From positions 1-40,036 of the IMG/VR virus record IMGVR_UViG_3300031746_000064: a stretch of 40,036 nucleotides of DNA, one strand, 5' to 3'. Of the stretch, positions 1,475-38,845 are shown piece after piece (positions within the stretch are counted from its first letter, which is position 1; every line of letters starts with the position of its first letter). The position numbers and the translations under genes were made by a program. The notes beneath the pieces are model-generated. The model was not told the origin of the DNA. It made no database searches and saw only the letters and a list, made by a program, of their open reading frames with translations. This DNA is from a virus.

Positions 1475-4400
1475 ATGGCTCTGATTAAGGGTTTAATAGA
1501 TGCATCTTCTGGATATGAGATATCTAATGCTGATGGTCGTTATGGTATTAAAGCATCTTCAGCTAATTATTTAATGACTTTAAATTCAGACGGCTCTTAT
1601 ATAAATTCCCCTTTATATACAGACGGTACTTATGTAAGTTCTTCTATTGGTCTTGACGTCACTGGCAGTATATTGTCATCTTCTTTTTTTAGAGATCAGA
1701 ATGGTTGGATGACTACTAAAAGTCAGTCCATTAATTTACCTGTCACTAATCAGCTCGGAGGAGGTTTTGGAGGAAGTGTTGCCCCTTTATCCTCTGGAGA
1801 CATGACTACTAATGACTTCGTAGAATTTGATGCCTCTACTAATGTTGCTAATACAGTGGCATATAACGGTTCTGTGTTTGATGGCCGGTATCTCTATCAG
1901 GTCCCTTATGGAGGGGCCTCAGCACATGGAAGAGTAATTAGGTATGATACTGCTTCATCTTTCTCTGATAGAAGTTCCTGGACTTCTTATAATGCTTCTG
2001 GTACGGGTAATGCAGATAACTCTACTGCTGTTGGTTATTTAGGGGGTTCTTTTGATGGGCGTTATGTCTATTATAGCCCTTACTGGACAGGGTCTACACG
2101 TTATGGGAATATTTTAAGATATGATACTAAAGCTTCTTTTAATAGCCCATCATCTTACTCAGTATTTGATGCCACAAAGATTAATCCTAATGCTAAAGGG
2201 TTTTATGGGATGGTGTTTGATGGTCGGTATAATTACCATGTCCCTAATTATACGGGGACCGATTATCATGGGAATATTCTGAGGTATGATACTTCCGGTA
2301 GTTTTAAGGATGTAGCATCTTATTCAGTATTTGATGCTACGACATTAGATACATCAGCTAGGGGTTTTGTTGGAGCTATTTTTGATGGTAAATACATCTA
2401 TTATTCCCCTAATAGAGTGACTGGAACAGTCCTTAATGGAAAGGTATTAAGGTATAACACACATAAGGATTTCTTGGATGCAAGTTCTTATAGTATTTTT
2501 GATTTAGGGCTAATGAATCCTTTAGCTAGAGGTTATTTTGGAGGGACTTTTGATGGCAGATTTGTTTATTTAACTCCATATTATAATGCGGCATATCATG
2601 GGAACGTAGCTCGGTATGATACCCTAAAGAATTTCAGTGATACGACTGCCTGGGAGATTTTTAATATTGCTGCACTAGGAACAGGATTTGAAGGGGCCTA
2701 TTTTGAGGGTAGATATGTTTATTTTGTTCCTTATGATAGCTCTAATTTAGTTCGATATGATACCCAGCAGAGGTTTTCAGATATTAGTTCCTGGTCCAGA
2801 TATAATGTGGTAAGAAATAGCTTTACAGGGATAAATTCAGATGGAAGATACTTGTACTTAACTCAGGCTCAGAATTACATTATAAGATTTGATACGAAGA
2901 CAGTGTTATCTTCAAATTATCCGAGTCTGGATAATTTAGCTGTAGGAGAAAATTTATATATAGACTCTTCTTCAGGGTATGTAGGATTAGGGACTAAAAC
3001 TCCTCAGGCTAAATTAGATGTTCAGGATACTACGAACCAGTTAAGATTAGGGTATAATGATTCTACTCAGGTTGTTTTTAATGCTGATTCTTTTGGCAGT
3101 CTGAATATTTCGTCTAATAATTCTCAATCAAATATTAATGTTGATAGAATGTCTGTATCAGCTACTCTTTTTAGAGATCAGAATGGTTGGATGACTACTA
3201 AAAGTCAGTCCATTAATTTACCTGTCACTAATCAGCTCGGAGGAGGTTTTGGAGGAAGTGTTGCCCCTTTATCCTCTGGAGACATGACTGCTAATGACTT
3301 CGTAGAATTTGATGCCTCTACTAATGTTGCTAATACAGCGGGATATTACGGTTCTGTATTCGATGGCCGATATCTTTACGAGGTCCCTACTACTACACCT
3401 ACAACAGCACATGGAGTAGTCATTAGGTATGATACAGCTTCTTCTTTCTCTGATAGAAGTTCCTGGACTTCTTATAATGCTAATGGATCAGGGAATGCAG
3501 ATAATTCTATGGCTGCTGGTTTTGTTGGAGGATCTTTCGATGGCCGCTATATCTATTATAGCCCTAATTATGTGACAGGAGGTCTTACTCTTCATGGGAA
3601 TATTTTAAGGTATGATACTAAAGCTCCTTTTAATAGCTCTTCTTCTTACTCAGTATTTGATGCGACAATGATTAATCCTAATGCTAAAGGGTTTTATGGA
3701 GTAGTATTTGATGGCCGGTATAATTATCATGTCCCTTATAATTTAACAAATGTCGTTTATCATGGAAATATTCTGAGGTATGATACTTCCGGGAGTTTTA
3801 AGGATGTAGCATCTTATTCAGTATTTAATGCTACGACATTAGACACTTCCGCTCAGGGTTTTTCAGGGGCAATATTTGATGGTAAATATATTTATTATGT
3901 CCCTTATATAATAACTAACGCAATTGGTAATGGGAAGGTATTAAGGTATAACACACATAAGGATTTCTTAGATACCAGTTCTTATAGTCAATTTGATTTA
4001 AGTTTAATGAATACTTTAGCTAAGGGGTATCGAGGAGGAACTTTTGACGGTAGGTTTGTATATTTTACTCCCTATTATAATTTATCTACAGCAGTTTATC
4101 ATGGGAACGTAGCTCGGTATGATACCCTAAAGAACTTTAGCGATGCCACTGCTTGGGAGATTTTTAATATTGCATCATTAGGAGTAGGTTTTAATACGGC
4201 TTATTTTGAGGGTAGGTATGTTTATTTAGCTCCTTATGATAGCTCTAATTTAGTTCGATATGATACCCAGCAGAGGTTTTCAGATATTAGTTCCTGGTCA
4301 AGATATAATGTAGTAAGATCTGGGATGGGTGCGTTAAGTTCTGATGGGAGATTTTTATATTTAACGCAGAATTTAACAGAGCAGAATTATGCTATAAGGT

Positions 4401-6443: not shown

Positions 6444-6484
6444 AAACGAGAGCTTTGAGCACTTATTACTTCAAGGGCATACAT

Positions 6485-6561
6485 TAACATATAGCTCAGT
6501 TGGTTAGAGCAGTTGCCTTCAAAGCAACATGTCACGGATTCAAACTCCGTTATGTGATCCA
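6485..6561 (+). tRNA. tRNA with anticodon UCA (opal suppressor)
   Basis: Complete cloverleaf: acceptor 6485-6491 with TATGTGA (one A-G mismatch), D-arm GCTC/GAGC, anticodon stem GTTGC/GCAAC with loop CTTCAAA, T-arm ACGGA-TTCAAAC-TCCGT, discriminator T and an encoded CCA (6559-6561). The anticodon TCA reads the UGA stop codon. It lacks the long extra arm and extended acceptor of tRNA-Sec and does not resemble tRNA-Trp in the stems. TGA is a normal stop codon for several genes in this window (for example 10325, 13292, 14285, 15008, 32449), so it would act as a suppressor rather than decode a sense codon. The amino acid it carries cannot be told. Confidence 0.85.
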
Positions 6562-6626
6562 AAGGTTTCGACCCTAAAAGGTCGAGATCGTTTTGCCTGT
6601 GAGACTTGTGCTCAACTCTCTCTTTA

Positions 6627-6660
6627 TATTTTGTCATGCCTTATGGCGTGTGGATTGAAA
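6627..6660 (+). repeat. CRISPR-like repeat unit 1 (type I-C-like)
   Basis: A 34-bp sequence repeated exactly at 6770-6803. Its core, 6633-6660, starts GTC, has a hairpin CATGCC-TTAT-GGCGTG and ends GTGGATTGAAA followed by C. This is the shape of type I-C CRISPR repeats (GTC + 5-bp stem + loop + GTGGATTGAAAC/T), with a slightly shorter loop. No cas genes and no regular spacers are present, so this is a solitary repeat rather than a normal array. Confidence 0.75.
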
Positions 6661-6669
6661 CGAAAATTT

Positions 6670-6745
6670 AGGTGTCTTTTACCGTAAGGGCTTACATTCA
6701 TTTCTCGGTTCGATTCCGAGTGTACCTTCCAAAACTCAGACACCT
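6670..6745 (+). ncRNA. Candidate Y RNA (short form, T-arm only)
   Basis: Closed by AGGTGTC (6670-6676) and GACACCT (6739-6745), then a T-run, so the terminal stem doubles as an intrinsic terminator. Inside are the shared motif TTTTAC...GCTTACATT, a short helix AAGG/CCTT (6686-6689 / 6725-6728), a perfect tRNA T-arm CTCGG-TTCGATT-CCGAG (6704-6720) and an AAACTC box before the closing strand. The same order of elements flanks the permuted tRNA-like RNAs at 34772 and 35120. An alternative, longer pairing uses the second GACACCT at 6841-6847 with an inner helix AGGGC/GCTCT (6687-6691 / 6827-6831). It lies 0.6 kb before the Ro60/TROVE gene, where Y RNAs are commonly encoded. A D-arm and anticodon arm are absent, so it may be a reduced or decayed copy. 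Confidence 0.55.
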
Positions 6746-6769: not shown

Positions 6770-6803
6770 TATTTTGTCATGCCTTATGGCGTGTGGATTG
6801 AAA
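6770..6803 (+). repeat. CRISPR-like repeat unit 2 (type I-C-like)
   Basis: Exact copy of 6627-6660, here followed by T instead of C, the usual variation at the last base of I-C repeats. The gap between the two repeats is 109 bp, about three times a normal I-C spacer, and contains the Y-RNA-like element. Both units are followed by a shared tail (AACTCAGACACCTTTT at 6734-6749 and 6836-6850), so each may give its own short transcript. Confidence 0.75.
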
Positions 6804-6857
6804 TAAATCAAGCGATATAGAAAATAGCTCTCACAACTCAGACACCTTTTATAATCT

Positions 6858-6960: not shown

Positions 6961-7206
6961 ATGTCAGTTCATGTTATTTACAACGGTCGTACTGAAGACA
7001 TTGCCTTTGATGAAATGTTTTCTTCTGAACATCTCTCAGGCCTGGGTATCACTGGAACGGTCACTCCTCAGTCAGTCACACCTGAGCAGGTTAAAATGGC
7101 CGCTGCTCAACATTTTGATGTTGGTCTTAATGAATTCCAGGACCATTTCGTGGAAATAAATCCAAACGGTAATATCACCGTACGGCCACAGACAACTTTC
7201 GGCTAA
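6961..7206 (+). CDS. Ubiquitin-like modifier (PRTRC protein C-like)
   Basis: An 81-residue protein with a strong AAAGGAG site 7 bp before ATG. The pattern, an N-terminal beta pair, then S-V-T-P-E-Q-V-K-x-A-A-A-x-H-F, an N-E-F-x-D-H-F turn and a C-terminal strand N-G-N-I-T-V-R-P, matches the small beta-grasp PRTRC protein C family as I recall it. It ends in ...TTFG with a single C-terminal glycine, the group that an E1 enzyme would adenylate. JAB protease and E1-like genes lie in the same operon, and the TROVE gene follows 40 bp later. A role as a modifier conjugated to a protein or RNA-protein target is inferred. It could instead be a sulfur-carrier-type protein, although no sulfur-pathway gene is nearby. 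Confidence 0.65.
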   Translation: MSVHVIYNGRTEDIAFDEMFSSEHLSGLGITGTVTPQSVTPEQVKMAAAQHFDVGLNEFQDHFVEINPNGNITVRPQTTFG

Positions 7207-7246: not shown

Positions 7247-8896
7247 ATGGCTACTCAAAGAACGTCCCCAGAAGAGGATATCAGAGCACAGCTCCTCAAC
7301 TCAATCTTAACCTGTCCTCACAGAGACACTGATAAGGTTGAGGAAGTCCATAAAATGGTTCAGGAAAAAGACCCTGTCTTCTATGCCCATTTTGCTTCAT
7401 GGCATAGAGATAAAGGTGAAATAAGGGATTTCAATGAGGTCTTTTGTGCCCATCTTATCACCGATCCTTATATTGAAAATAGAGAAGTCGGTCTCGGCCT
7501 TTTCCGTGACCATGTCTCTTACATGAAAGAAAGAATTACCGGTTATATTAAAGGAAAGATCGTTAAGCTAAAAAATAAAACCGGTAAAAAAATAACTGTC
7601 AAGGTTGGTAAAAAGAACAAACAAGTCGATGAGTATACTTACACCGATAAAAAAGTCGGCCTTAATAAAAACATACCTGGAGCACTCAAAAATGAAGTGG
7701 CCCAGTATCTGAGATGGCTTGAAAAGAACGATATCCGTTTTGATGCCGAAGCCCTTAAAAACGCCAAACATTTGAAATACCTCTATGCATCAAGAGGTCT
7801 TCAAATCAAGCCTTCTGAAAGAGCCCAAAAAGTACTGTTTGAAAAGAAATATCCTGAAGACAGTCGTTTAAATATCTTTAAAAAGATCACGTCAGCAAAG
7901 TCTGCCGAAGCAGCTAAACTGATTGTTGAAAACAATATACCCTACTCGATTGCTGTGGGTCTTATTGAAAAAGTCACCCCAGCTATTCTGGTAGCCCTAG
8001 TCCATGCCATGACTCCTCAGGAACTCATTGCCAATATGGCTTCCCTGAAGGAGAAAGGGGCTTATGATAATCCTGAACTGAAAACCATCATCATGACCAA
8101 ACTGGACAAGGCTAAGACAGACAAAAGAGTCACATCTTTAAAACCAAAAGAGGCTATTAAAGCCGGCAACATCAAAGATGAGGAGATTGAAAGAAAGCTG
8201 GACTCTGTGGCTGATGCCAGCATCAAAAAATCGGGCGTTATCAGAGTAGACACAGCTGTCTTTGTGGATAGATCTGGTTCAATGAGTACTGCTATTGAAA
8301 TAGGTAAAAGAGTAGCAGCTCTGATATCAGGAGCTACTGAGGCAGCGATATATGCCATAGTATTTGACAGCATGGCCGCAATGATAGAGCCAAAAGGAAC
8401 TACTCTAACTGCATGGGAAAAAGCCTTTGCACCTATCCATCCTCATGGTAATACGTCTGTAGGGTCTGCCCTTGATTTTCTTTCCAGAAGAAATATCAAA
8501 GTAGATCAAATAGTTATTATCACGGATGAGCAGGAAAACTGCCATCCTTTGTTTGTTAACGCTTATGCAGAGTATACTAAAAAGTATAATGTAACGCCTC
8601 ATGTAGTCATTATCAATATAGGCAGTTATGATTCTACTCTCAGCCAGACAATGAAAGCTGCTGGCATTGAGTTTGATTCATATAAACCTACCCAGAATGA
8701 CTATGTGGCATTGCCGGGATTACTGACTCTACTAGCCAGGAAGACTAAACTCGACCTGGTTTATGAGATCATGGATTATCCTCTGGCTACAAGAAGACCT
8801 TTTCCAGTTAATGACATGGACAGCACATTCGTGAAACTTAATAAGAAAAGGAAACCAGGAGCCCGTAAAATTATCCTGGATGTTAATTGCCCATAA
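7247..8896 (+). CDS. rsr: Ro60-like TROVE/vWA RNA-binding protein
   Basis: 549 residues, the usual size of bacterial Ro60 (Rsr). The N-terminal two thirds are helical repeats of the TROVE type, rich in Lys. The C-terminal third is a von Willebrand A domain with an intact MIDAS start D341-R-S-G-S345, a later ITDEQEN acidic loop and the usual alternating strands and helices. Ro60 is a ring that binds Y RNAs on its outer face and the ends of misfolded RNAs in its hole; in bacteria it works with ribonucleases in RNA quality control and stress. Here it is embedded between a ubiquitin-like gene and a JAB/E1 pair, and candidate Y RNAs occur upstream and in the tRNA array. The domain assignment is strong; the partnership with the Ubl genes is inferred from the operon. 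Confidence 0.88.
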   Translation: MATQRTSPEEDIRAQLLNSILTCPHRDTDKVEEVHKMVQEKDPVFYAHFASWHRDKGEIRDFNEVFCAHLITDPYIENREVGLGLFRDHVSYMKERITGYIKGKIVKLKNKTGKKITVKVGKKNKQVDEYTYTDKKVGLNKNIPGALKNEVAQYLRWLEKNDIRFDAEALKNAKHLKYLYASRGLQIKPSERAQKVLFEKKYPEDSRLNIFKKITSAKSAEAAKLIVENNIPYSIAVGLIEKVTPAILVALVHAMTPQELIANMASLKEKGAYDNPELKTIIMTKLDKAKTDKRVTSLKPKEAIKAGNIKDEEIERKLDSVADASIKKSGVIRVDTAVFVDRSGSMSTAIEIGKRVAALISGATEAAIYAIVFDSMAAMIEPKGTTLTAWEKAFAPIHPHGNTSVGSALDFLSRRNIKVDQIVIITDEQENCHPLFVNAYAEYTKKYNVTPHVVIINIGSYDSTLSQTMKAAGIEFDSYKPTQNDYVALPGLLTLLARKTKLDLVYEIMDYPLATRRPFPVNDMDSTFVKLNKKRKPGARKIILDVNCP

Positions 8897-8897
8897 A

Positions 8898-9740
8898 ATG
8901 TCTATTTTTGACCTTATAAAAAAAATAGGAGAGAAGGAACAGGCCATTACTGAAATGGAGTTCATCTCTCCTGTCTTTTCTCAGACCCGGGTAGCCACCA
9001 GAATAGAAGGTCTGTTCTACTTCCTTGACATAGCACAATCCAAACCTGGATGGTATAAAATACGGCCTATAAATACCAGACACGCCGTTATCGTAGAAGC
9101 AGCTGATTTAATGAATATAGAGACTTATCTTAAGGCCCTGGATAAAGTACGGTTGGTTTTAGCCTTTAAGAAAGACGGTGTTTATCACGCTATACCCGAT
9201 AAGGCTAATAAATATGATTTTATTTATTCTCAGCCCCTTCAGGTATATCTTTATGATGATAGCGTATCTGATTTTGATCGTGTTATAGCCCGTTACGATG
9301 GTTCTAATATCTGGTTTGAAAGACTGGACACTTCCAATGACCCAGCCAAGGCAGAGTATCTAAGAAATAGCCTGGAAAAACACTGTGACCCTAAAAACAT
9401 AAAATTTTCAGGGCTTACGTCTGAAGAAAAACTAGCCTATACTCTTCGAACTACTCTGGACAAAACGTTTTTTGAGAGTCAGAAGAAAGGCCGGCTGCAG
9501 AATGATGTGGAACATGCTGGAGGAGTTTTCGTAAAGTTCACTGAAAAATCTGACCATTACAGTGTAACTTATAAAGTAGACGGAGAACAGTTTACCAGTC
9601 ATATCTCAAAAGATCCAACTCATAAAGTAGTAACAGCCGGGCTCTGTTTGAATGGAAACGATCGGAACTTTGATTTAAAGAGTCTGGTGACGGTTATCAG
9701 AGAAGCAAAAAACCGAGATCTGATACATAAAACTATCTAG
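8898..9740 (+). CDS. Unknown protein of the Ubl-TROVE operon
   Basis: 280 residues from the ATG at 8898, one base after the TROVE stop; an upstream in-frame ATG at 8880 overlaps the TROVE end and has no better ribosome site. Two regions can be seen. Residues 1-150 are beta-rich, with F-I-S-P-V-F and F-D-R-V-I-A-R-Y-D-G motifs. A C-terminal domain (about 195-280) has the pattern A-G-L-C-L-N-G-N-D-R-N-F-D-L-K-S-L-V. It sits where an E2-like gene stands in many prokaryotic ubiquitin-like operons, but neither of its Cys-containing segments has an E2 active-site surround that I recognise. I recall similar unnamed proteins with JAB/E1 genes but cannot name the family. It could be an adaptor, substrate or divergent E2. 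Confidence 0.6.
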   Translation: MSIFDLIKKIGEKEQAITEMEFISPVFSQTRVATRIEGLFYFLDIAQSKPGWYKIRPINTRHAVIVEAADLMNIETYLKALDKVRLVLAFKKDGVYHAIPDKANKYDFIYSQPLQVYLYDDSVSDFDRVIARYDGSNIWFERLDTSNDPAKAEYLRNSLEKHCDPKNIKFSGLTSEEKLAYTLRTTLDKTFFESQKKGRLQNDVEHAGGVFVKFTEKSDHYSVTYKVDGEQFTSHISKDPTHKVVTAGLCLNGNDRNFDLKSLVTVIREAKNRDLIHKTI

Positions 9741-9748
9741 GATTTTTT

Positions 9749-10141
9749 ATGACTTCAACAGATGAAAAGATTGAGCAATGCTGGTTCCTTTACGGTATCA
9801 GGATTGGTCGTTGGAGTTTAGGCTATCTTAAATACCATTCAAAAGGAACAGAGGCTTCTGTTGATTTTGATTGGCAAAAAGTCATGGCCTCAAAATATTT
9901 TTTAGGGTGGTATCATACTCATCCTACTTTTTCCTCTGAACCTAGTGAGCTAGACGAAAAAACAATGAGATCCTGGATAAGAGGTCTTGGCCGAAATCTG
10001 ATCTGCGGCATTCTTGGGACAGACGGGCATAAATGCTGGTACTATTTCAGATGGGGTAATTCTATATGTCATCTGAGACTCAGATCTTATAAAGCAGCCG
10101 GATTTGTACTGGTTGATAGGAACAGAACATATGACATGTAG
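9749..10141 (+). CDS. JAB/JAMM metalloprotease (deubiquitinase-like)
   Basis: 130 residues. The zinc motif H56-T-H58-x7-S66-x2-D69 fits the JAMM signature HxHx7SxxD exactly, within G-W-Y-H-T-H-P. An upstream Glu (for example E35) would supply the catalytic base. Such proteins cleave ubiquitin-like tags or mature their C-termini. The gene starts 8 bp after the preceding stop and its end overlaps the next small gene by 11 bp, so it is part of the same operon. It is short, having only the core JAB domain. Because the Ubl encoded upstream already ends in Gly, the enzyme more likely removes tags than matures the precursor, but this is inference. Confidence 0.85.
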   Translation: MTSTDEKIEQCWFLYGIRIGRWSLGYLKYHSKGTEASVDFDWQKVMASKYFLGWYHTHPTFSSEPSELDEKTMRSWIRGLGRNLICGILGTDGHKCWYYFRWGNSICHLRLRSYKAAGFVLVDRNRTYDM

Positions 10142-10325
10142 GACCTGTTTAAGAGCTAAAAAATGTGGTGTTAAGATCATATGTAATCGGTCTAATGCAT
10201 TATCTTCAAATTTTGCGATCGAAGTTACCAGGTACTTTTTGAACAGTACTGTTCCCAGAGATTGTCCTTTAGGTTACGGCACTAAAAATGCCCAGAAAAT
10301 TTTTGATGCTATCAGGAAAAAATGA
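10131..10325 (+). CDS. Small Cys-rich protein between JAB and E1 genes
   Basis: 64 residues from ATG 10131 (M-T-C-R-T-C). Cysteines at 3, 6, 12, 18 and 45 suggest one zinc site or a redox cluster. It overlaps the JAB gene by 11 bp and ends in TGA that overlaps the ATG of the E1-like gene (ATGA), so translation of the three is coupled. It is one of the genes whose TGA stop could be read by the UCA tRNA; read-through would add only a few residues before TAA. No family is recognised. Confidence 0.6.
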   Translation: MTCRTCLRAKKCGVKIICNRSNALSSNFAIEVTRYFLNSTVPRDCPLGYGTKNAQKIFDAIRKK

Positions 10326-10951
10326 ATACTCTAATTCACGAACAAAAATACCGAGGCGATAAGCTCCTGGCAAAAATGGCCGAGCAGGAATTCATTGTAT
10401 GTGGTGCCGGAGCCATCGGTTCTAATCTTGTTGAAAACATGGTCAGACAGGGCTTTAAAAAAATCACTGTAATTGATTTTGATCGGGTGGATGATCATAA
10501 CAGACATACCCAGACCTGGCATAGACGTGACATAGGACAGCTCAAAACTGCTATTCTGAAGAATCAAGTATTCAGTATCATGGGACTGACTATTTACGAT
10601 TTTCCCAGGAAACTGGATGAGTCCAATGTCGGAAAAGTCCTTAAAAAGGGTGCCATAATCATTGATGGCTTTGATAACCATGAGAGCAGAAAATTAGTGA
10701 CCGTGCATTGTCTGAAAAACGACATAGAATGTCTTCATGTAGGTCTTAACAAAGATTGTGCAGAAATACATTGGAACGAGGCTTATCATATTCCAGAGCC
10801 GATAAAAGGCATGGATGTATGTGAATATCCTCTGGCCAGAAACGTCATTATGATGGCAGTATCTGTGGCTAGTGAAGTTCTTATACGATTTCTGGACAAC
10901 GGCTCACGACAGAACTATTTTATTACTCTCGGTGACTTTAAGATAATCTAA
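10322..10951 (+). CDS. ThiF/E1-like adenylating enzyme
   Basis: 209 residues with a Rossmann nucleotide site G28-A-G30-A-I-G33, acidic strand end I-D-F-D (51-54), the N60-R61 pair, D70-I-G-x-x-K75 and D115-x-x-D118-N-x-x-x-R123, all hallmarks of ThiF/MoeB/E1 enzymes that adenylate the C-terminal Gly of ubiquitin-like proteins. Candidate thiol Cys residues are C137 and C146. The Cys4 zinc site of MoeB is absent and the chain is at the short end for the family. It is the last gene of the operon and is followed by a long hairpin. PRTRC-type systems have the same Ubl + JAB + ThiF set; the TROVE gene is the unusual addition here. Confidence 0.88.
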   Translation: MNTLIHEQKYRGDKLLAKMAEQEFIVCGAGAIGSNLVENMVRQGFKKITVIDFDRVDDHNRHTQTWHRRDIGQLKTAILKNQVFSIMGLTIYDFPRKLDESNVGKVLKKGAIIIDGFDNHESRKLVTVHCLKNDIECLHVGLNKDCAEIHWNEAYHIPEPIKGMDVCEYPLARNVIMMAVSVASEVLIRFLDNGSRQNYFITLGDFKII

Positions 10952-21453: not shown

Positions 21454-22227
21454 ATGCCAAAACTTGCAGGTCTTTCTCTTACTGATGTCAACAAGACTCT
21501 CAGTGGTTTCGGGTACACCAGTATGTCGGTCGATAAACTGGGTGCTTCTGAATACACTCTCGTGGGTATAGTCGTTGACAAGACCGGTTCTGTTTCTCCT
21601 TTTAAAGATCAGCTCGAAGACATGCTTGCTCTGAGTCTGGAATCTTGCAAAAAATCGCCCCGGGCGTTAAATCTCGTTGCCCGATCAACTGCTTTCAATG
21701 CAACCTTCGGAAAAGTCGATATCGAAGAAATACACGGCTTTACTTCTCTGTCTGCCATTGATACCACGAAATTCAAAGGCACGATCGAGCCTGATGGCGG
21801 GACCCCACTTTTCGATGCCACTCTGGAAGCTGTCGAAGCCTTGTACGATTACGGTAAAAAACTTTACCAAAAACAAATCCTCTCGAACGCCATATTATTT
21901 GTCATCACAGACGGCGATGACAATGCATCGGTCAAGGCCGCCAACAAGCCTGAAAAAATCAAGGAGGTCTTGGATAAGATCAGGAATGAAGAAATTCTTG
22001 AATCTGTCCGGGTCATTCTTATTGGCATCAATGATACCGAGGCCTACATGAAACAACGGCTTGATGAGTTCATGAAAAAAGGTGGTCTGAGCGAGTACGT
22101 CTCCGTGGGTGATGCCACGAAGGGCAAACTGGCTAAATTAGCTCAGTTTGTCAGTCAAAGCACTTCGTCACAGTCTCAGGCCCTCGGTTCTGGTGGAGTA
22201 TCACAGCCGGTCGATTTCACGTTCTAA
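21454..22227 (+). CDS. vWA-domain protein (TerY-like)
   Basis: 257 residues with GGAAGG before ATG. The vWA domain starts at about 34: MIDAS D42-K-T-G45-S46, then T117 in G-G-T-P-L-F-D-A and D153 in I-T-D-G-D-D-N. The C-terminus is a Ser/Gln-rich tail. Together with the PP2C and kinase genes that follow, it resembles the TerY-P triad (vWA + PP2C phosphatase + protein kinase) described near tellurite/stress gene clusters in bacteria, in which a vWA protein is thought to be the regulated partner. Confidence 0.8.
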   Translation: MPKLAGLSLTDVNKTLSGFGYTSMSVDKLGASEYTLVGIVVDKTGSVSPFKDQLEDMLALSLESCKKSPRALNLVARSTAFNATFGKVDIEEIHGFTSLSAIDTTKFKGTIEPDGGTPLFDATLEAVEALYDYGKKLYQKQILSNAILFVITDGDDNASVKAANKPEKIKEVLDKIRNEEILESVRVILIGINDTEAYMKQRLDEFMKKGGLSEYVSVGDATKGKLAKLAQFVSQSTSSQSQALGSGGVSQPVDFTF

Positions 22228-22245: not shown

Positions 22246-23070
22246 ATGAACTCCGATTCTTACTTCGAAATAGGGTGTGCCCATAATGTCTGTCAGGACT
22301 ATGCCCTTAATGGCAGTTATGAAGATATGATTTATGGCATTGTCTCTGATGGATGTTCATCGGCCCCCTTTTCGGAGATCGGGGCACAAGTACTCTGTCA
22401 TGTAGCTAAACATTATCTGGTCACTTTTTATAGATCAGGCCTTTTTATCAATAGTGATAAAAACACCATAGCGAATACCCTTCGCTCTTGTATCATACAG
22501 AGAGCAGACGATATCAGAAAACTATATAACGTCCCTCAAAAAAGTCTACAGGCTACTCTCCTGATCACTTTTGCAATCAAAAACAGGGTCTTTGTTTTTG
22601 CCTGGGGAGATGGTGTTATCATCAAAAGAACAAAATTCCCCAGTCCGATTGCTCATTGTACAGAAATAATCCAGATCGATTACCCACCTTCCAATGCTCC
22701 AGTTTACCCGGTACTTGATTCAGTTGGGTATCTGGCAGAACACCCTGACACGCGTAAAAAAATCATCTCTTGTAGCAGTGATGGAAAAATATTGTCTGAC
22801 TATGACTTTACAGGAAACACACTGTTTTCTCCTTTTATTTTAATTGATGATAACATAACGTATATAACAATATGTACGGACGGACTTCTCAGCTATAAAA
22901 ACAAGGACAAAGACCCTATAGCACACTATAAAATGGCTGCTGAAGTCACCGACTACGCATCCTCAACCGGAGTTTTTGTTGAACGGTGCATGAGATTTTT
23001 AAAAAGAAAAAATCTGAAAAACGGCACCACTCATTATGATGATGTTGCCTGTGCATCTTTAATTTTATAA
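22246..23070 (+). CDS. PP2C-family protein phosphatase
   Basis: 274 residues. The metal-binding Asp residues are in place: D18 (Q-D-Y-A), D35-G36 (I-V-S-D-G-C-S-S), D122 in W-G-D-G, D212-G (C-T-D-G-L-L-S-Y) and D265-D266 (H-Y-D-D-V-A-C-A-S-L). This is a compact PP2C without extra domains. It probably reverses phosphorylation made by the kinase encoded three genes downstream (24028), in the manner of the TerY-P triad. The gene starts 18 bp after the vWA gene. Confidence 0.85.
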   Translation: MNSDSYFEIGCAHNVCQDYALNGSYEDMIYGIVSDGCSSAPFSEIGAQVLCHVAKHYLVTFYRSGLFINSDKNTIANTLRSCIIQRADDIRKLYNVPQKSLQATLLITFAIKNRVFVFAWGDGVIIKRTKFPSPIAHCTEIIQIDYPPSNAPVYPVLDSVGYLAEHPDTRKKIISCSSDGKILSDYDFTGNTLFSPFILIDDNITYITICTDGLLSYKNKDKDPIAHYKMAAEVTDYASSTGVFVERCMRFLKRKNLKNGTTHYDDVACASLIL

Positions 23071-23644: not shown

Positions 23645-24031
23645 ATGTCTTTTCACAGTACCTTTATAGCAAAGTTACAGAAAGATAATCATTGGCATGT
23701 TGAACACGATTCCAGCCAGATCAAACTTTCCAAAGTCATTGCAGGAAAAGCGGTCTCTATTATGCTTGAACGGCAAAAAAACGAGACCTATGCTCTGAGC
23801 CCTGTCAAAAATCTTTTCCAGTCTACTACTTCCCACTATGACTATGCCGTACCGGAAGAACGATGGATCAGGAATAAAGGGATTTTCAATAACTTTGTTC
23901 GTACCATCAAACGAGTGGGAATGCACGAGTATATTAATTGGAGTACTTTCATTAAGGTCAATGACAACAATCCGAAATCCAACAAAAAAACGGTCAAGGA
24001 ACAATTAGCCTCACTTTTACTTATCTCATGA
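23645..24031 (+). CDS. Hypothetical protein of the kinase operon
   Basis: 128 residues with AGAAAGG before ATG. Basic, mixed alpha/beta, with N-x-F-V-R-T-I-K-R in the centre. Its TGA stop overlaps the ATG of the kinase gene (ATGA), so the two are translationally coupled. Function unknown. Confidence 0.6.
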   Translation: MSFHSTFIAKLQKDNHWHVEHDSSQIKLSKVIAGKAVSIMLERQKNETYALSPVKNLFQSTTSHYDYAVPEERWIRNKGIFNNFVRTIKRVGMHEYINWSTFIKVNDNNPKSNKKTVKEQLASLLLIS

Positions 24032-25746
24032 AAAAGACCTATCAAATTAAAGCCGGAAAAAATACGGTCACTCTCACCGACAAGGATTACATAGCTGCCG
24101 GTGGCCAAGGTGTGGTATTTGTTCAAAAGGGTCTCGCTTATAAAATTTACCATGACCCTAAACAAACTATTCCTGTGGCCAAGATCAATGAACTGGCAGC
24201 TCTGACAAGGCCTGATATCCTGGGTCCTAAAGAGCCCATATATGACCTGTCTAATACTCCTATTGGGTTTACCATGGATTATGTCGATGGGGTAGAATTC
24301 CTGTGTAAAATTTTCACTCAGGAATTCAGGAATGATCAGAATCTGTCTCCTCAGGACGTTTCCGATCTTGTTGTGTCCATGCAAAAAGCCCTGGAATACG
24401 TACATTCAAAAAGCGTCCTTGTAGTGGACTACAATGAAATGAATTTTCTGCTGGGTAAAAAAATAGTCTATCATATAGACGTTGATTCCTGGCAGACAAA
24501 ACATTTCAAGGCACCCGCCATCATGGAAAGCATTCGTGACCGGTCTACTCCTAAAGGAGTATTCACCGAATTCACTGACTGGTTCAGCTTTGCTGTTGTC
24601 ACCTTTCAAATGTATGCCGGAATCCACCCTTATAAGGGCATGCATCCTGATTTTAAACCCAGTGAATGGGCTAAACGAATGGAACAAGGTGTCTCAGTAT
24701 TTGATAAAAAGACCAAGATCCCGGCTTCCTGTCAGAACTTTAATGTCATCCCCAAACGGCATCTGGAGTGGTATAAAGACATTTTTTCTAAAGGGCAGAG
24801 ATCGATACCACCTTACCCAGATGATGTCACTGTGCCTGCCCAGATCAAGACGGTCATTGTAAGCAAAGGGGATTTCATCATAAAATTATTAGAAAGCTAT
24901 GATGAAAATATCCGTAGTGTCTATCACTACAATAATCGCAGATATGTCATAACTGATAAAGCTCTGTACCATGCAGACAAAAAAGTCTGTGATCTGTACC
25001 CGAAGATCAGGACCGAACTTTACAGCACCCCGGGAAATGACCCTATACTGGTCTGTAAAAAGAATTCAAGTGTTGATTTCCTTGACCTGAAAAAAAACCT
25101 AATCACATCAGTGCCGGCCGAAAACATGATGATGAGTAATGGTCTTATTTATATCATCAATAATGGATTTCTTATTGAAAACACTTTTGAAAATATGGGA
25201 AAGCTTTTTCTTAAGAGTCATGTTGTCTGTGACATCAGCCGGTCTTACAAAGTCTACCGAGGGATCATTACTCAGGATGATTTCATGTCCTGTCATCTGG
25301 CCATACCGTATGCTTCTGGTAAATGTGTCAATATCCATGCAGAAGAATTAGACGGCAGTCATATTATTGACGCTCATTACCACAATCGAATAGCCGTTGT
25401 GATCTCCGAAAAAACAGGGGCTTACTTCCAAACCATCTTTCATTTCTATGACAACTGGCACAACAATTACACCGTCAGAGATGAGCAGATAAATGAAGTA
25501 AACCCAGCTAATTTTATTGTACTTCCAAATAATTTATGTGTTCATGTCGAGCAGAATAAAATCAGCCTCTTTAAGGACAACACAAAAAGAAAAGAGCTGG
25601 CTGATCCTCCAATAGAACCCTCTATGAGACTCTATAATGAGGACATGACTGTTTTATTCGCAGACGGAAAAAAGCTATATTCTATGGGGGTAAACTACCA
25701 CGGACACAAAGCCCGTGGCTTTAAACCTGAGACCCTGAACAGATAA
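24028..25746 (+). CDS. Protein kinase with C-terminal beta-rich domain (TerY-P triad-like)
   Basis: 572 residues. Kinase domain 1-270: Gly-rich loop A-A-G-G-Q-G-V-V (23-30), K39 in Y-K-I-Y, a divergent catalytic loop V-V-D134-Y-N-E-M-N139-F in place of HRDxxxxN, and D151-V-D for the DFG Asp; then a W-F-S-F-A-V helix typical of kinases. All key acidic and Asn residues are present, so it is probably active on Ser/Thr. Residues about 280-572 are beta-rich with repeated G-x-I/L-Y-I units, possibly a propeller. The gene set vWA (21454) + PP2C (22246) + kinase is the TerY-P arrangement. The 3' end overlaps the second TnpB gene by 26 bp, so its last codons may be near an insertion point. Confidence 0.8.
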   Translation: MKKTYQIKAGKNTVTLTDKDYIAAGGQGVVFVQKGLAYKIYHDPKQTIPVAKINELAALTRPDILGPKEPIYDLSNTPIGFTMDYVDGVEFLCKIFTQEFRNDQNLSPQDVSDLVVSMQKALEYVHSKSVLVVDYNEMNFLLGKKIVYHIDVDSWQTKHFKAPAIMESIRDRSTPKGVFTEFTDWFSFAVVTFQMYAGIHPYKGMHPDFKPSEWAKRMEQGVSVFDKKTKIPASCQNFNVIPKRHLEWYKDIFSKGQRSIPPYPDDVTVPAQIKTVIVSKGDFIIKLLESYDENIRSVYHYNNRRYVITDKALYHADKKVCDLYPKIRTELYSTPGNDPILVCKKNSSVDFLDLKKNLITSVPAENMMMSNGLIYIINNGFLIENTFENMGKLFLKSHVVCDISRSYKVYRGIITQDDFMSCHLAIPYASGKCVNIHAEELDGSHIIDAHYHNRIAVVISEKTGAYFQTIFHFYDNWHNNYTVRDEQINEVNPANFIVLPNNLCVHVEQNKISLFKDNTKRKELADPPIEPSMRLYNEDMTVLFADGKKLYSMGVNYHGHKARGFKPETLNR

Positions 25747-34042: not shown

Positions 34043-34543
34043 ATGCCAAAATGTAGAAAATGTGGGGAAAAATTTAAAAATTGGGTTTTGATTGAAGGAA
34101 AGGAAAGAAATCTTTGTAAAAGAAAGTATTGTTTATTGTGCTCTCCATGGAATAAGCACAATACAAAAAAAATCGAGACTGTAAAAAACAAAGAAAAGTG
34201 TAATTGTAACATTTGTAAAAAAGATTTTTTTTATGAAAGAAAAAAGGGTGGTACAAAAAATATTTGTGGTGCGTGTTCTCAAAAAAAATCAAGATATAAT
34301 AAAAGAGTTAAATTAATTGAACATTTAGGTGGAAAATGTAAAAAATGTGGATATTCAAGGTGTATAAAAGCACTTGATTTTCATCATATAGAAAGTAATG
34401 AAAAAGAATTGGAATTAAATATCAGAAATTTTCATTTGAAATGGGATGTTTTAGTAAAAGAAGCGGAAAAATGTGTTTTATTGTGTTCTATATGTCATAA
34501 AGAATTACATGCAGGATGTTGGGTGTATAGCCAAGTTGGTTAA
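34043..34543 (+). CDS. HNH homing endonuclease in the tRNA array
   Basis: 166 residues with AAGGAGG before ATG. N-terminal zinc knuckles (C-R-K-C, C-L-L-C, C-N-I-C, C-G-A-C) and a C-terminal HNH: C99-K-K-C102-G, F-H114-H115-I, then C148-S-I-C151-H152 ... H156. Such genes invade phage tRNA clusters. Its last seven codons and the stop TAA (34541-34543) are supplied by tRNA-Ile(GAT), the stop lying in the D-loop. It is more AT- and Lys-rich than its neighbours, in line with recent arrival. Confidence 0.88.
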   Translation: MPKCRKCGEKFKNWVLIEGKERNLCKRKYCLLCSPWNKHNTKKIETVKNKEKCNCNICKKDFFYERKKGGTKNICGACSQKKSRYNKRVKLIEHLGGKCKKCGYSRCIKALDFHHIESNEKELELNIRNFHLKWDVLVKEAEKCVLLCSICHKELHAGCWVYSQVG

Positions 34544-34737: not shown

Positions 34738-34749
34738 GTTCTTTGACAT
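34738..34749 (+). promoter_or_regulatory. boxA-like site / possible -35 before Y-RNA-like element
   Basis: GTTCTTTGACAT; the inner TTGACA could also be a -35 box, but only a weak -10 (ATAAAG, 34766-34771) follows at 17 bp. Confidence 0.35.
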
Positions 34750-34771
34750 TTAGATATTCGTAAAAATAAAG

Positions 34772-34932
34772 TAGTACCCTCTACTTTTGATGCTTACATT
34801 ACCTATCCTGGTTCAATTCCGGGTTCCCCCACACAGAATTTCTACATGGAATTTTATGTGGGGGAATAGCCTAATTGGTAAAGGCAACAGACTATTAATC
34901 TGTCAAAAGACGCATTGATAACTCGGGTACTA
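34772..34932 (+). ncRNA. Permuted tRNA-like RNA 1, candidate YrlA-type Y RNA
   Basis: Outer stem TAGTACCC (34772-34779) with GGGTACTA (34925-34932), then a T-run. Asymmetric internal loop TCTACTTTT / GATAACTC. Second helix GATGC (34789-34793) with GCATT (34912-34916). Then TTACATT and tRNA parts in permuted order: T-arm CCTGG-TTCAATT-CCGGG (34807-34823), acceptor 3' strand TTCCCCC (34824-34830), a loop of about 29 bases that itself pairs, acceptor 5' strand GGGGGAA (34860-34866), D-arm GCC/GGC (34869-34885), anticodon arm ACAGA-CTATTAA-TCTGT (34887-34903). The loop centre is ATT. Every tRNA arm is intact, but the 5' and 3' ends lie in the variable region. This matches a Ro60-binding stem joined to a tRNA-mimic module; a true permuted tRNA gene is the alternative. 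Confidence 0.72.
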
Positions 34933-34945
34933 TTTTTTAAATCAC

Positions 34946-35109: not shown

Positions 35110-35119
35110 CCAAAAATCT

Positions 35120-35255
35120 GTCATGTCCTTTACTTATTGAGCATACATTTCTTCTTGGTTCGAGTCCAAGTATTCCCCGAGGGGAATATAGCCGAATGGT
35201 AAAGGCAACTATCTTAGAATAGTAACACAAATGGCTCGGTTAACTCGGACATGAC
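35120..35255 (+). ncRNA. Permuted tRNA-like RNA 2, candidate YrlA-type Y RNA
   Basis: Outer stem GTCATGTCC (35120-35128) with GGACATGAC (35247-35255), nine perfect pairs with a sequence unrelated to that of element 1. Internal loop TTTACTTAT / GTTAACTC; second helix TGAGC (35138-35142) with GCTCG (35234-35238). Then ATACATT, T-arm CTTGG-TTCGAGT-CCAAG (35154-35170), acceptor TATTCCCC (35171-35178), a two-base loop GA, acceptor GGGGAATA (35181-35188), D-arm GCC/GGC, and anticodon-like arm ACTAT/ATAGT with a six-base loop CTTAGA. The acceptor stem is thus a closed hairpin, which argues for a stable tRNA mimic and against a tRNA that must be cut to expose ends for charging. Confidence 0.72.
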
Positions 35256-35265
35256 ATACTTTCTC

Positions 35266-38270: not shown

Positions 38271-38290
38271 TAGCTCAGTTGGATAAAGAG
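38271..38290 (+). pseudogene. tRNA 5' fragment at the HNH insertion
   Basis: TAGCTCAGTTGGATAAAGAG is a tRNA D-arm without acceptor or the other arms, directly before the HNH gene. It is probably the relic of the tRNA into which the HNH gene inserted, or a copied flank. Confidence 0.6.
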
Positions 38291-38296
38291 AATCTA

Positions 38297-38845
38297 ATGG
38301 TTGATACTAGAAAATTAGGGTATTCTCCAGATTGGAATAGATTGTCTACTTCAACCGGATATAGAGTTATTTATTGCCCTGACCATCCATTTGCTTGGAG
38401 TACTGGATATGTCTATGTTCATAGAATTATAGCTGAAATCAAAATCGGGAGAATATTACAGCCGGAAGAAAAAGTACACCATATAAATGAAAATAAAAAA
38501 GACAATAGTCCTGAGAATATTAAAATTTTAACTCAATCTGAGCACTCAAAATTACATAAAACCACGGGAATAATTTATGTGACTTTCAACTGTACTTTTT
38601 GCAATAAAACATTTTCAAGAAAAAAATACCAGGTCCATAAAGGTAAGCAATATTGCTCTAAAAAATGCTATCATGCTTCTAAAAAAGGAAAACCAGTATA
38701 TCTTTTTAAAAAAGATATACCTCATGGAGTTTATGGAAAATATAGAAAAGGGTGTAGATGCACTCTCTGTAAAAAAGCTAATACTGATAGATGTAGAAAA
38801 TTCAAACGCCCCCGTAGTTCAGTGGATAGAACACAAATTTCCTAA
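38297..38845 (+). CDS. HNH homing endonuclease ending inside tRNA-Arg
   Basis: 182 residues from ATG 38297; a TTG at 38279 within the tRNA fragment is also in frame. Core: Y-V-H-R-I-I-A ... V-H61-H62-I-N-E-N ... N-S-P-E-N-I-K-I-L-T-Q-S-E-H-S-K-L-H, a classic HNH_3-type motif. Then a zinc pair C-T-F-C / C-S-K-K-C and a G-C-R-C-T-L-C segment. The last 12 codons are read from tRNA-Arg(CCT), and the stop TAA (38843-38845) is in its anticodon loop. Confidence 0.87.
   Translation: MVDTRKLGYSPDWNRLSTSTGYRVIYCPDHPFAWSTGYVYVHRIIAEIKIGRILQPEEKVHHINENKKDNSPENIKILTQSEHSKLHKTTGIIYVTFNCTFCNKTFSRKKYQVHKGKQYCSKKCYHASKKGKPVYLFKKDIPHGVYGKYRKGCRCTLCKKANTDRCRKFKRPRSSVDRTQIS

Follow-up and report, generated by a model that had tools for sequence, protein, structure and literature searches.

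The window analysed here is a viral DNA stretch of 40,036 nucleotides (IMG/VR record IMGVR_UViG_3300031746_000064, positions 1 to 40,036). It encodes an RNA, named element 1, whose tRNA arms follow each other in a circularly permuted order inside a clamp of two helices. Is this RNA a permuted tRNA gene that is matured to a working tRNA, or is it a phage Y RNA in which a Ro60-binding stem is joined to a tRNA mimic, as was claimed in a preliminary description of the sequence? From 5' to 3', element 1 consists of the lower stem, a short internal loop, the second helix, the T-arm, the 3' strand of the acceptor, a closing hairpin, the 5' strand of the acceptor, the dinucleotide UA, the D-arm, the anticodon arm, the second helix, AACUC and the lower stem (Table 1). 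All parts of the layout given in the preliminary description, i.e. four tRNA arms in permuted order inside a two-helix clamp, are present. The location reported there (34772-34932) was correct; the extent was not, element 1 being slightly wider.

Folding of the region, proposed at that time as a check, indicated a strongly structured RNA. The minimum free energy of element 1 is -62.3 compared to -35.4 ± 3.8 for shuffled sequences (z = -7.1), and none of 200 shuffles was as low. In the free minimum energy structure (-61.8), another hairpin replaces the D- and the anticodon arm. The full cloverleaf (-60.0) lies only 1.8 kcal/mol above this structure, and the pair probability of the anticodon stem in the ensemble is 0.04. 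Because free folding slightly favours another structure, it is the comparison with related elements that supports the tRNA fold of element 1. A search of the window for Rfam families gave no Y RNA match at E 5, promoter and terminator scans reached chance level only, and BLASTN of the element region against phages returned ordinary tRNAs as sole matches. A signal resembling the boxA of rRNA (GTTCTTTGA/GATCTTTGA) occurs at positions 34738, 33569 and 6432 of the window, upstream of element 1, a tRNA-Phe and element 4, respectively. It recurs before clamps in L130 and L129 (L numbers denote the records compared). HNH-like ORFs (34043-34543 and 38279-38845) lie within the tRNA cluster of the window.

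Further clamp elements were found in the window. Element 2 has the layout of element 1 (fold z = -3.9). Element 3, which bears the same number in the preliminary description, comprises a T-arm and a CCA-ended 3' acceptor strand only. Elements 3 and 4 adjoin the gene of a Ro60-like protein; element 1 is located 26 kb away on the same contig. CRISPR-like repeats ending in GGATTGAAAC (6633-6661 and 6776-6804) flank element 3, and the second repeat is followed by a duplicate of part of the 3' half of element 3. Similar repeats flank a clamp element of L128 (8733-8757 and about 8897).

Table 1. Clamp elements and the Ro60-like gene block of the window.
Feature	Position	Strand	Basis or remark
Element 4, clamp around unpermuted tRNA	6455-6615	+	tRNA at 6485-6561, anticodon UCA, encoded CCA
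Element 3, clamp around T-arm and 3' acceptor strand	6670-6745	+	acceptor strand ends in CCA
Small ORF, conserved upstream of Ro60-like gene	6961-7206	+	gene order; no family match
Ro60-like protein (TROVE-type ring and vWA), probable partner	7247-8896	+	profile, predicted fold
Conserved neighbour, PRTRC-B-like by position	8880-9740	+	no family match
JAB-domain protein	9749-10141	+	
ThiF/E1-like protein	10322-10951	+	
Element 1, clamp and circularly permuted tRNA-like RNA	34768-34936	+	folding, comparison
Element 1, lower stem, 5' strand	34768-34779	+	pairs with 34925-34936, 12 bp
Element 1, conserved 5' core	34780-34800	+	UCUAC, upper-helix strand, CUUACAUU
Element 1, second (upper) helix	34787-34793/34912-34918		part of clamp
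Element 1, T-arm	34807-34823	+	CCUGG-UUCAAUU-CCGGG
Element 1, acceptor stem and long closing hairpin	34824-34866	+	without CCA
Element 1, acceptor 3' strand	34824-34830		pairs with 5' strand 34860-34866
Element 1, acceptor-closing hairpin	34831-34859		29 nt
Element 1, D-arm	34869-34885	+	GG in loop
Element 1, anticodon arm	34887-34903	+	5 bp, loop CUAUUAA (U33, A37, anticodon AUU)
Element 1, 3' clamp	34912-34936	+	upper-helix strand, AACUC, lower stem
Element 2, layout as element 1	35119-35256	+	acceptor closed by CGAG tetraloop, 6-nt anticodon loop

The presence of a Ro60 gene in the same genome had been claimed as well. In Pfam searches, the respective ORF yielded weak vWA matches only, and TROVE (PF05731) matched neither the window nor any scanned relative. 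A profile deduced from 13 relatives and applied to the PDB by means of hmmsearch matched human Ro60 with an E-value of 8.1e-7 and Rsr with 7e-3. The best E-value of Pfam vWA_Ro60 among the 13 relatives was 5.6e-8. An AlphaFold model of the ORF (pLDDT 82.8) matched Ro60/TROVE structures with Z values of 18-20 and 436-444 aligned residues; structures ranked below these matched in the vWA domain only. By profile and predicted fold, the ORF is the expected Ro60-like protein, composed of a ring and a vWA domain. With Ro60/Rsr (TROVE) proteins, including that of Thermus phage phiLo (9l5y), it shares the fold over the whole length and a vWA domain with the DxSxS motif. It differs from them in sequence (12-16% identity), in being missed by Pfam TROVE, and in its location within a conserved gene block that also encodes JAB and ThiF/E1-like proteins.

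A relative with 40% identity is encoded by the 595 kb phage LR756511, and others were found in 13 more viral contigs. The order small ORF, Ro60-like gene, PRTRC-B-like ORF, JAB and ThiF is kept in these loci, with single genes undetected in a few. Judging from its context, our guess is that the small ORF encodes a ubiquitin-like/PRTRC-C protein. In L119 (14504-14535) and L002 (14960-15000), a clamp-like hairpin ACTTGGA...TCCCCAA is located immediately upstream of the start codon of the Ro60-like gene, which would fit autoregulation. Elsewhere in the window, vWA-like, PP2C and kinase genes (21454-22227, 22246-23070 and 24028-25746) stand in a row and form a TerY-P-like triad; relatives of all three also occur in L135.

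The register of the clamp was fixed by comparison of the elements. On the 5' side, the lower stem is followed by YYNAC, 8 nt and CWUACAWW; the other side consists of 9 nt, ACUY and the lower stem. The second helix results from pairing of 8+1 nt with the 9 nt. In this upper helix, which played no part in picking the elements, 84.7% of the cells are paired compared to 63% in shuffles, and 67 two-sided changes were counted compared to 26.8. In LR756511, ten copies of the pattern GTCYCCNAC...TACAAAC were counted, on one strand and all at most 6 kb from the sole Ro60-like gene. A strict detector identified 47 distinct modules (59 raw) in 10 of the 14 Ro60-like phage loci (0.31 Mb), and none in 0.93 Mb of other sequence or in shuffles. 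Furthermore, Ro60-like genes were predicted for two contigs picked by the clamp pattern alone, and were then found. L126 and L128, which were missed by the strict detector, contain variant clamps discernible by eye, and no clamp was seen in L136. L137 (8060-9000) possesses the clamp layout with GAAAC replacing ACUU in the 3' loop, which suggests co-evolution with its Ro60-like protein. When bacterial genomes were scanned, at least 232 Ro60-like relatives were obtained, 80 of which were kept, mostly from cyanobacteria and planctomycetes; a clamp is present in 74 of 79 bacterial Ro60-like loci. Most of the single matches that the first clamp pattern gave in viral contigs were due to chance and were discarded; 13 such contigs lack a Ro60-like gene. 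On L065, a 58 kb contig lacking a Ro60-like gene, a clear clamp (3756-3884) encloses a tRNA whose anticodon loop has 8 nt.

The cargo enclosed by the clamp is a short hairpin, an entire unpermuted tRNA or a permuted tRNA, and the clamp also surrounds a cargo of 50 nt without any tRNA. In several genomes the clamp, closed by a small loop, is inserted in tRNA-ordered genes, either in the D-loop or at the junction of D- and anticodon arm. In L081, for example, a Phe-GAA tRNA harbours it in its D-loop; an Arg tRNA of L002 harbours it between the D- and the anticodon arm. Such clamps were observed in L081 (4240-4400 and 4000-4140, minus strand), L002 (12985-13110), L119 (11379-11510) and L135 (9146-9290). 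In L132 (14484-14612), downstream of a ThiF gene, the clamp encloses another permutation, namely anticodon arm, T-arm, acceptor and D-arm. Among the bacterial loci (L141-L219), caged tRNAs in unpermuted order and with many anticodons were observed next to Ro60-like genes of cyanobacteria. Some are assigned to tRNA-Pyl (CTA) by ARAGORN, and such caged tRNAs are easy to mistake for genuine ones in annotation.

Ten permuted tRNAs that possess an anticodon arm, originating from six records (two from the window, three from L129, two from L130, and one each from L002, L133 and L135) were aligned. Of all cells 99% are paired, a value that is partly selected because the scanner demanded most tRNA stems, and 17 of the 20 pairs changed on both sides, which is much less affected by this selection. 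Sliding or shuffling reduced pairing to 35-68%. The anticodon arm claimed for element 1 was found, and across the ten elements its helix is 100% paired, with two-sided changes in all five pairs. Stem covariation in relatives, whose absence had been named beforehand as evidence against the proposal, is strong in the helices of the clamp and of the tRNA. The anticodons of the permuted tRNAs are AUU, UUU, UGA, GCA, UCG, GAU and UAA. U33 is present in eight of the ten anticodon loops, and every loop of 7 nt contains a purine at position 37. In two relatives, CCA follows the acceptor strand within the loop (ACCA at 8945 of L135 and GCCA at 9198 of L130).

A known Y RNA with a tRNA-like part is YrlA (Rfam family RF02553; structure 6CU1; Chen et al. 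2014). Its consensus has the same permuted order, lacks an anticodon arm, and, like the relatives, carries AACUUG before the closing stem. Matches of relatives, all below the Rfam gathering score, were obtained for the bacterial elements of L145 (whole model, E 6.9e-7) and L142 (E 1.7e-4) and for a phage element of L133 (tRNA part, E 7.3e-4). Element 1 itself gave no match to RF02553 at E 10. Common to YrlA and element 1 are the outer stem with an internal loop, followed by the permuted T-arm, a closed acceptor hairpin and the D-arm, as well as a Ro60 gene on the same contig, which is adjacent in the relatives. YrlA genes likewise lie near Ro60 (PMC8394870). In contrast to YrlA, element 1 adds a complete anticodon arm, is joined through the variable region, closes its acceptor with a long hairpin, and contains AACUC instead of the consensus AACUUG. 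With the same scanner, an anticodon arm was detected in the permuted cargo of seven of eight phage cases compared to three of 21 bacterial ones. In the sole negative phage case (L129) the arm is present by eye, and at least one of the three bacterial positives runs into the upper helix. Since relatives match YrlA and its consensus is devoid of the arm, the permuted layout corresponds to the YrlA design already known, and the anticodon arm is the difference. Element 1 is most likely a YrlA-type Y RNA with an added anticodon arm; some of the phage RNAs may already be listed in Chen et al. (2014). The original claim of a phage Y RNA that joins a Ro60-binding stem to a tRNA mimic agrees well with the clamps beside Ro60-like genes and with the YrlA-matching relatives.

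Other known RNAs were considered as well. Permuted tmRNA (RF04321) was rejected for element 1 (18.2 bits and E 0.12, compared to a gathering score of 47), and the similarity seen between L002 11690-11820 and a 23S rRNA helix lacked Rfam support and was dropped. In the Ro-like locus of Streptomyces phage Sham (ON645339), an RNA with permuted T-arm, acceptor and D-arm is located just upstream of the annotated Ro gene; as read by eye only, it differs from element 1 in its clamp sequence and by lacking an anticodon arm. Beside the annotated Ro of this phage (L139, 500-650 and 1490-1660) lie tRNA-like RNAs, permuted and interrupted, with a different recurring clamp motif.

The best overall explanation is that element 1 is a YrlA-type phage Y RNA, i.e. 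a tRNA mimic held by Ro60, to which we assign a probability of about 0.75. The ring of the Ro60-like protein would bind the two-helix clamp with its conserved internal loop, and that this protein binds the clamp is very likely. A tRNA opened in the variable region, joined there to the clamp and closed at the acceptor would then be displayed as an L-shaped mimic. Because its acceptor end is closed, the mimic would not be chargeable as encoded.

In Deinococcus, a Y RNA tethers Ro60 (Rsr) to PNPase (PMC8394870, PMC7790460), and this precedent, together with the shared clamp and Ro60 partner, argues for an alternative in which the tRNA-like end is a RYPER-like adaptor for PNPase or another RNA-decay enzyme and the anticodon arm is of minor importance. 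This alternative leaves unexplained, however, the covarying anticodon arm that is kept in phages and lacking in bacterial permuted forms, and we consider it rather unlikely.

Permuted tRNA genes are known in Cyanidioschyzon. If element 1 were such a gene, its clamp would be cut, the ends would be ligated to a circle, and RNase P and RNase Z would remove the acceptor loop to give a working tRNA. As in these genes, the 3' half precedes the 5' half and all arms are present, including an intact anticodon arm; the CCA in the acceptor loops of the L135 and L130 relatives and the encoded CCA of the tRNA enclosed by element 4 also speak for this route. In element 1, however, the acceptor is closed by its long hairpin without CCA and offers no maturable end, and most of the other acceptor ends are likewise closed by tetraloops or long hairpins lacking CCA. 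Moreover, the same clamp is found on non-tRNA cargo, on unpermuted tRNAs and inside tRNA-ordered genes, and is therefore not a tRNA junction signal. Ordinary tRNA genes in the vicinity carry the same anticodons (Lys UUU and Thr UGU in L002, Leu UAA and UAG in L135, Thr UGU in L081), and RtcB was not found in 14 records by a search whose control worked. Of the ten permuted tRNAs, two are without U33 and one has a 6-nt loop. This route is improbable; element 1 is probably not matured to a tRNA, and a mimic is more likely.

It is highly improbable that the clamp, as a mobile or intron-like element, enters tRNA genes or captures tRNA pieces and lies close to Ro60 incidentally: although clamps occupy many tRNA sites (D-loop, D/anticodon junction, variable region, outside the acceptor) and HNH genes occur within the tRNA cluster, clamps concentrate beside the Ro60-like genes of phages and bacteria and are absent from the 0.93 Mb of other sequence scanned, and their helices covary individually, as expected of a bound RNA.

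For the Ro60-held mimic, the persistence of U33 and purine 37 while the acceptor is closed suggests that the anticodon arm is the part that is used; both nucleotides may also be inherited rather than selected. The Ro60-bound mimic would occupy a host reader of anticodon arms, the first candidate being a tRNA-cleaving defence nuclease. Alternatively, it would tether such a reader or PNPase to Ro60. A decoy or adaptor is favoured because phage tRNAs counter tRNA-targeting defences (PMC10264068, PMC11555353), and because the YrlA domain has been proposed, as an unproven suggestion, to inhibit an anticodon nuclease competitively (PMC7790460). The more specific assignment of element 1 as a decoy for tRNA-targeting nucleases is possible and should be taken as tentative.

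To our knowledge, no function has been assigned to phage Ro60 proteins and Y RNAs. A real anticodon arm combined with a closed acceptor makes the hypothesis that a Y RNA is a tRNA decoy or adaptor directly testable. The analysis further exposes a Ro60 subfamily that is missed by Pfam TROVE and is common in cyanobacteria, planctomycetes and huge phages. This subfamily has a fixed, searchable RNA module and is joined to JAB and E1-like genes. One may speculate, with more doubt than for the decoy, that huge phages employ their divergent Ro60-like protein as the platform for a set of RNAs; these would combine a single clamp module with permuted, whole or interrupted tRNAs of varied anticodons and, as anticodon decoys held by Ro60, would blunt tRNA-cleaving defences of the host.
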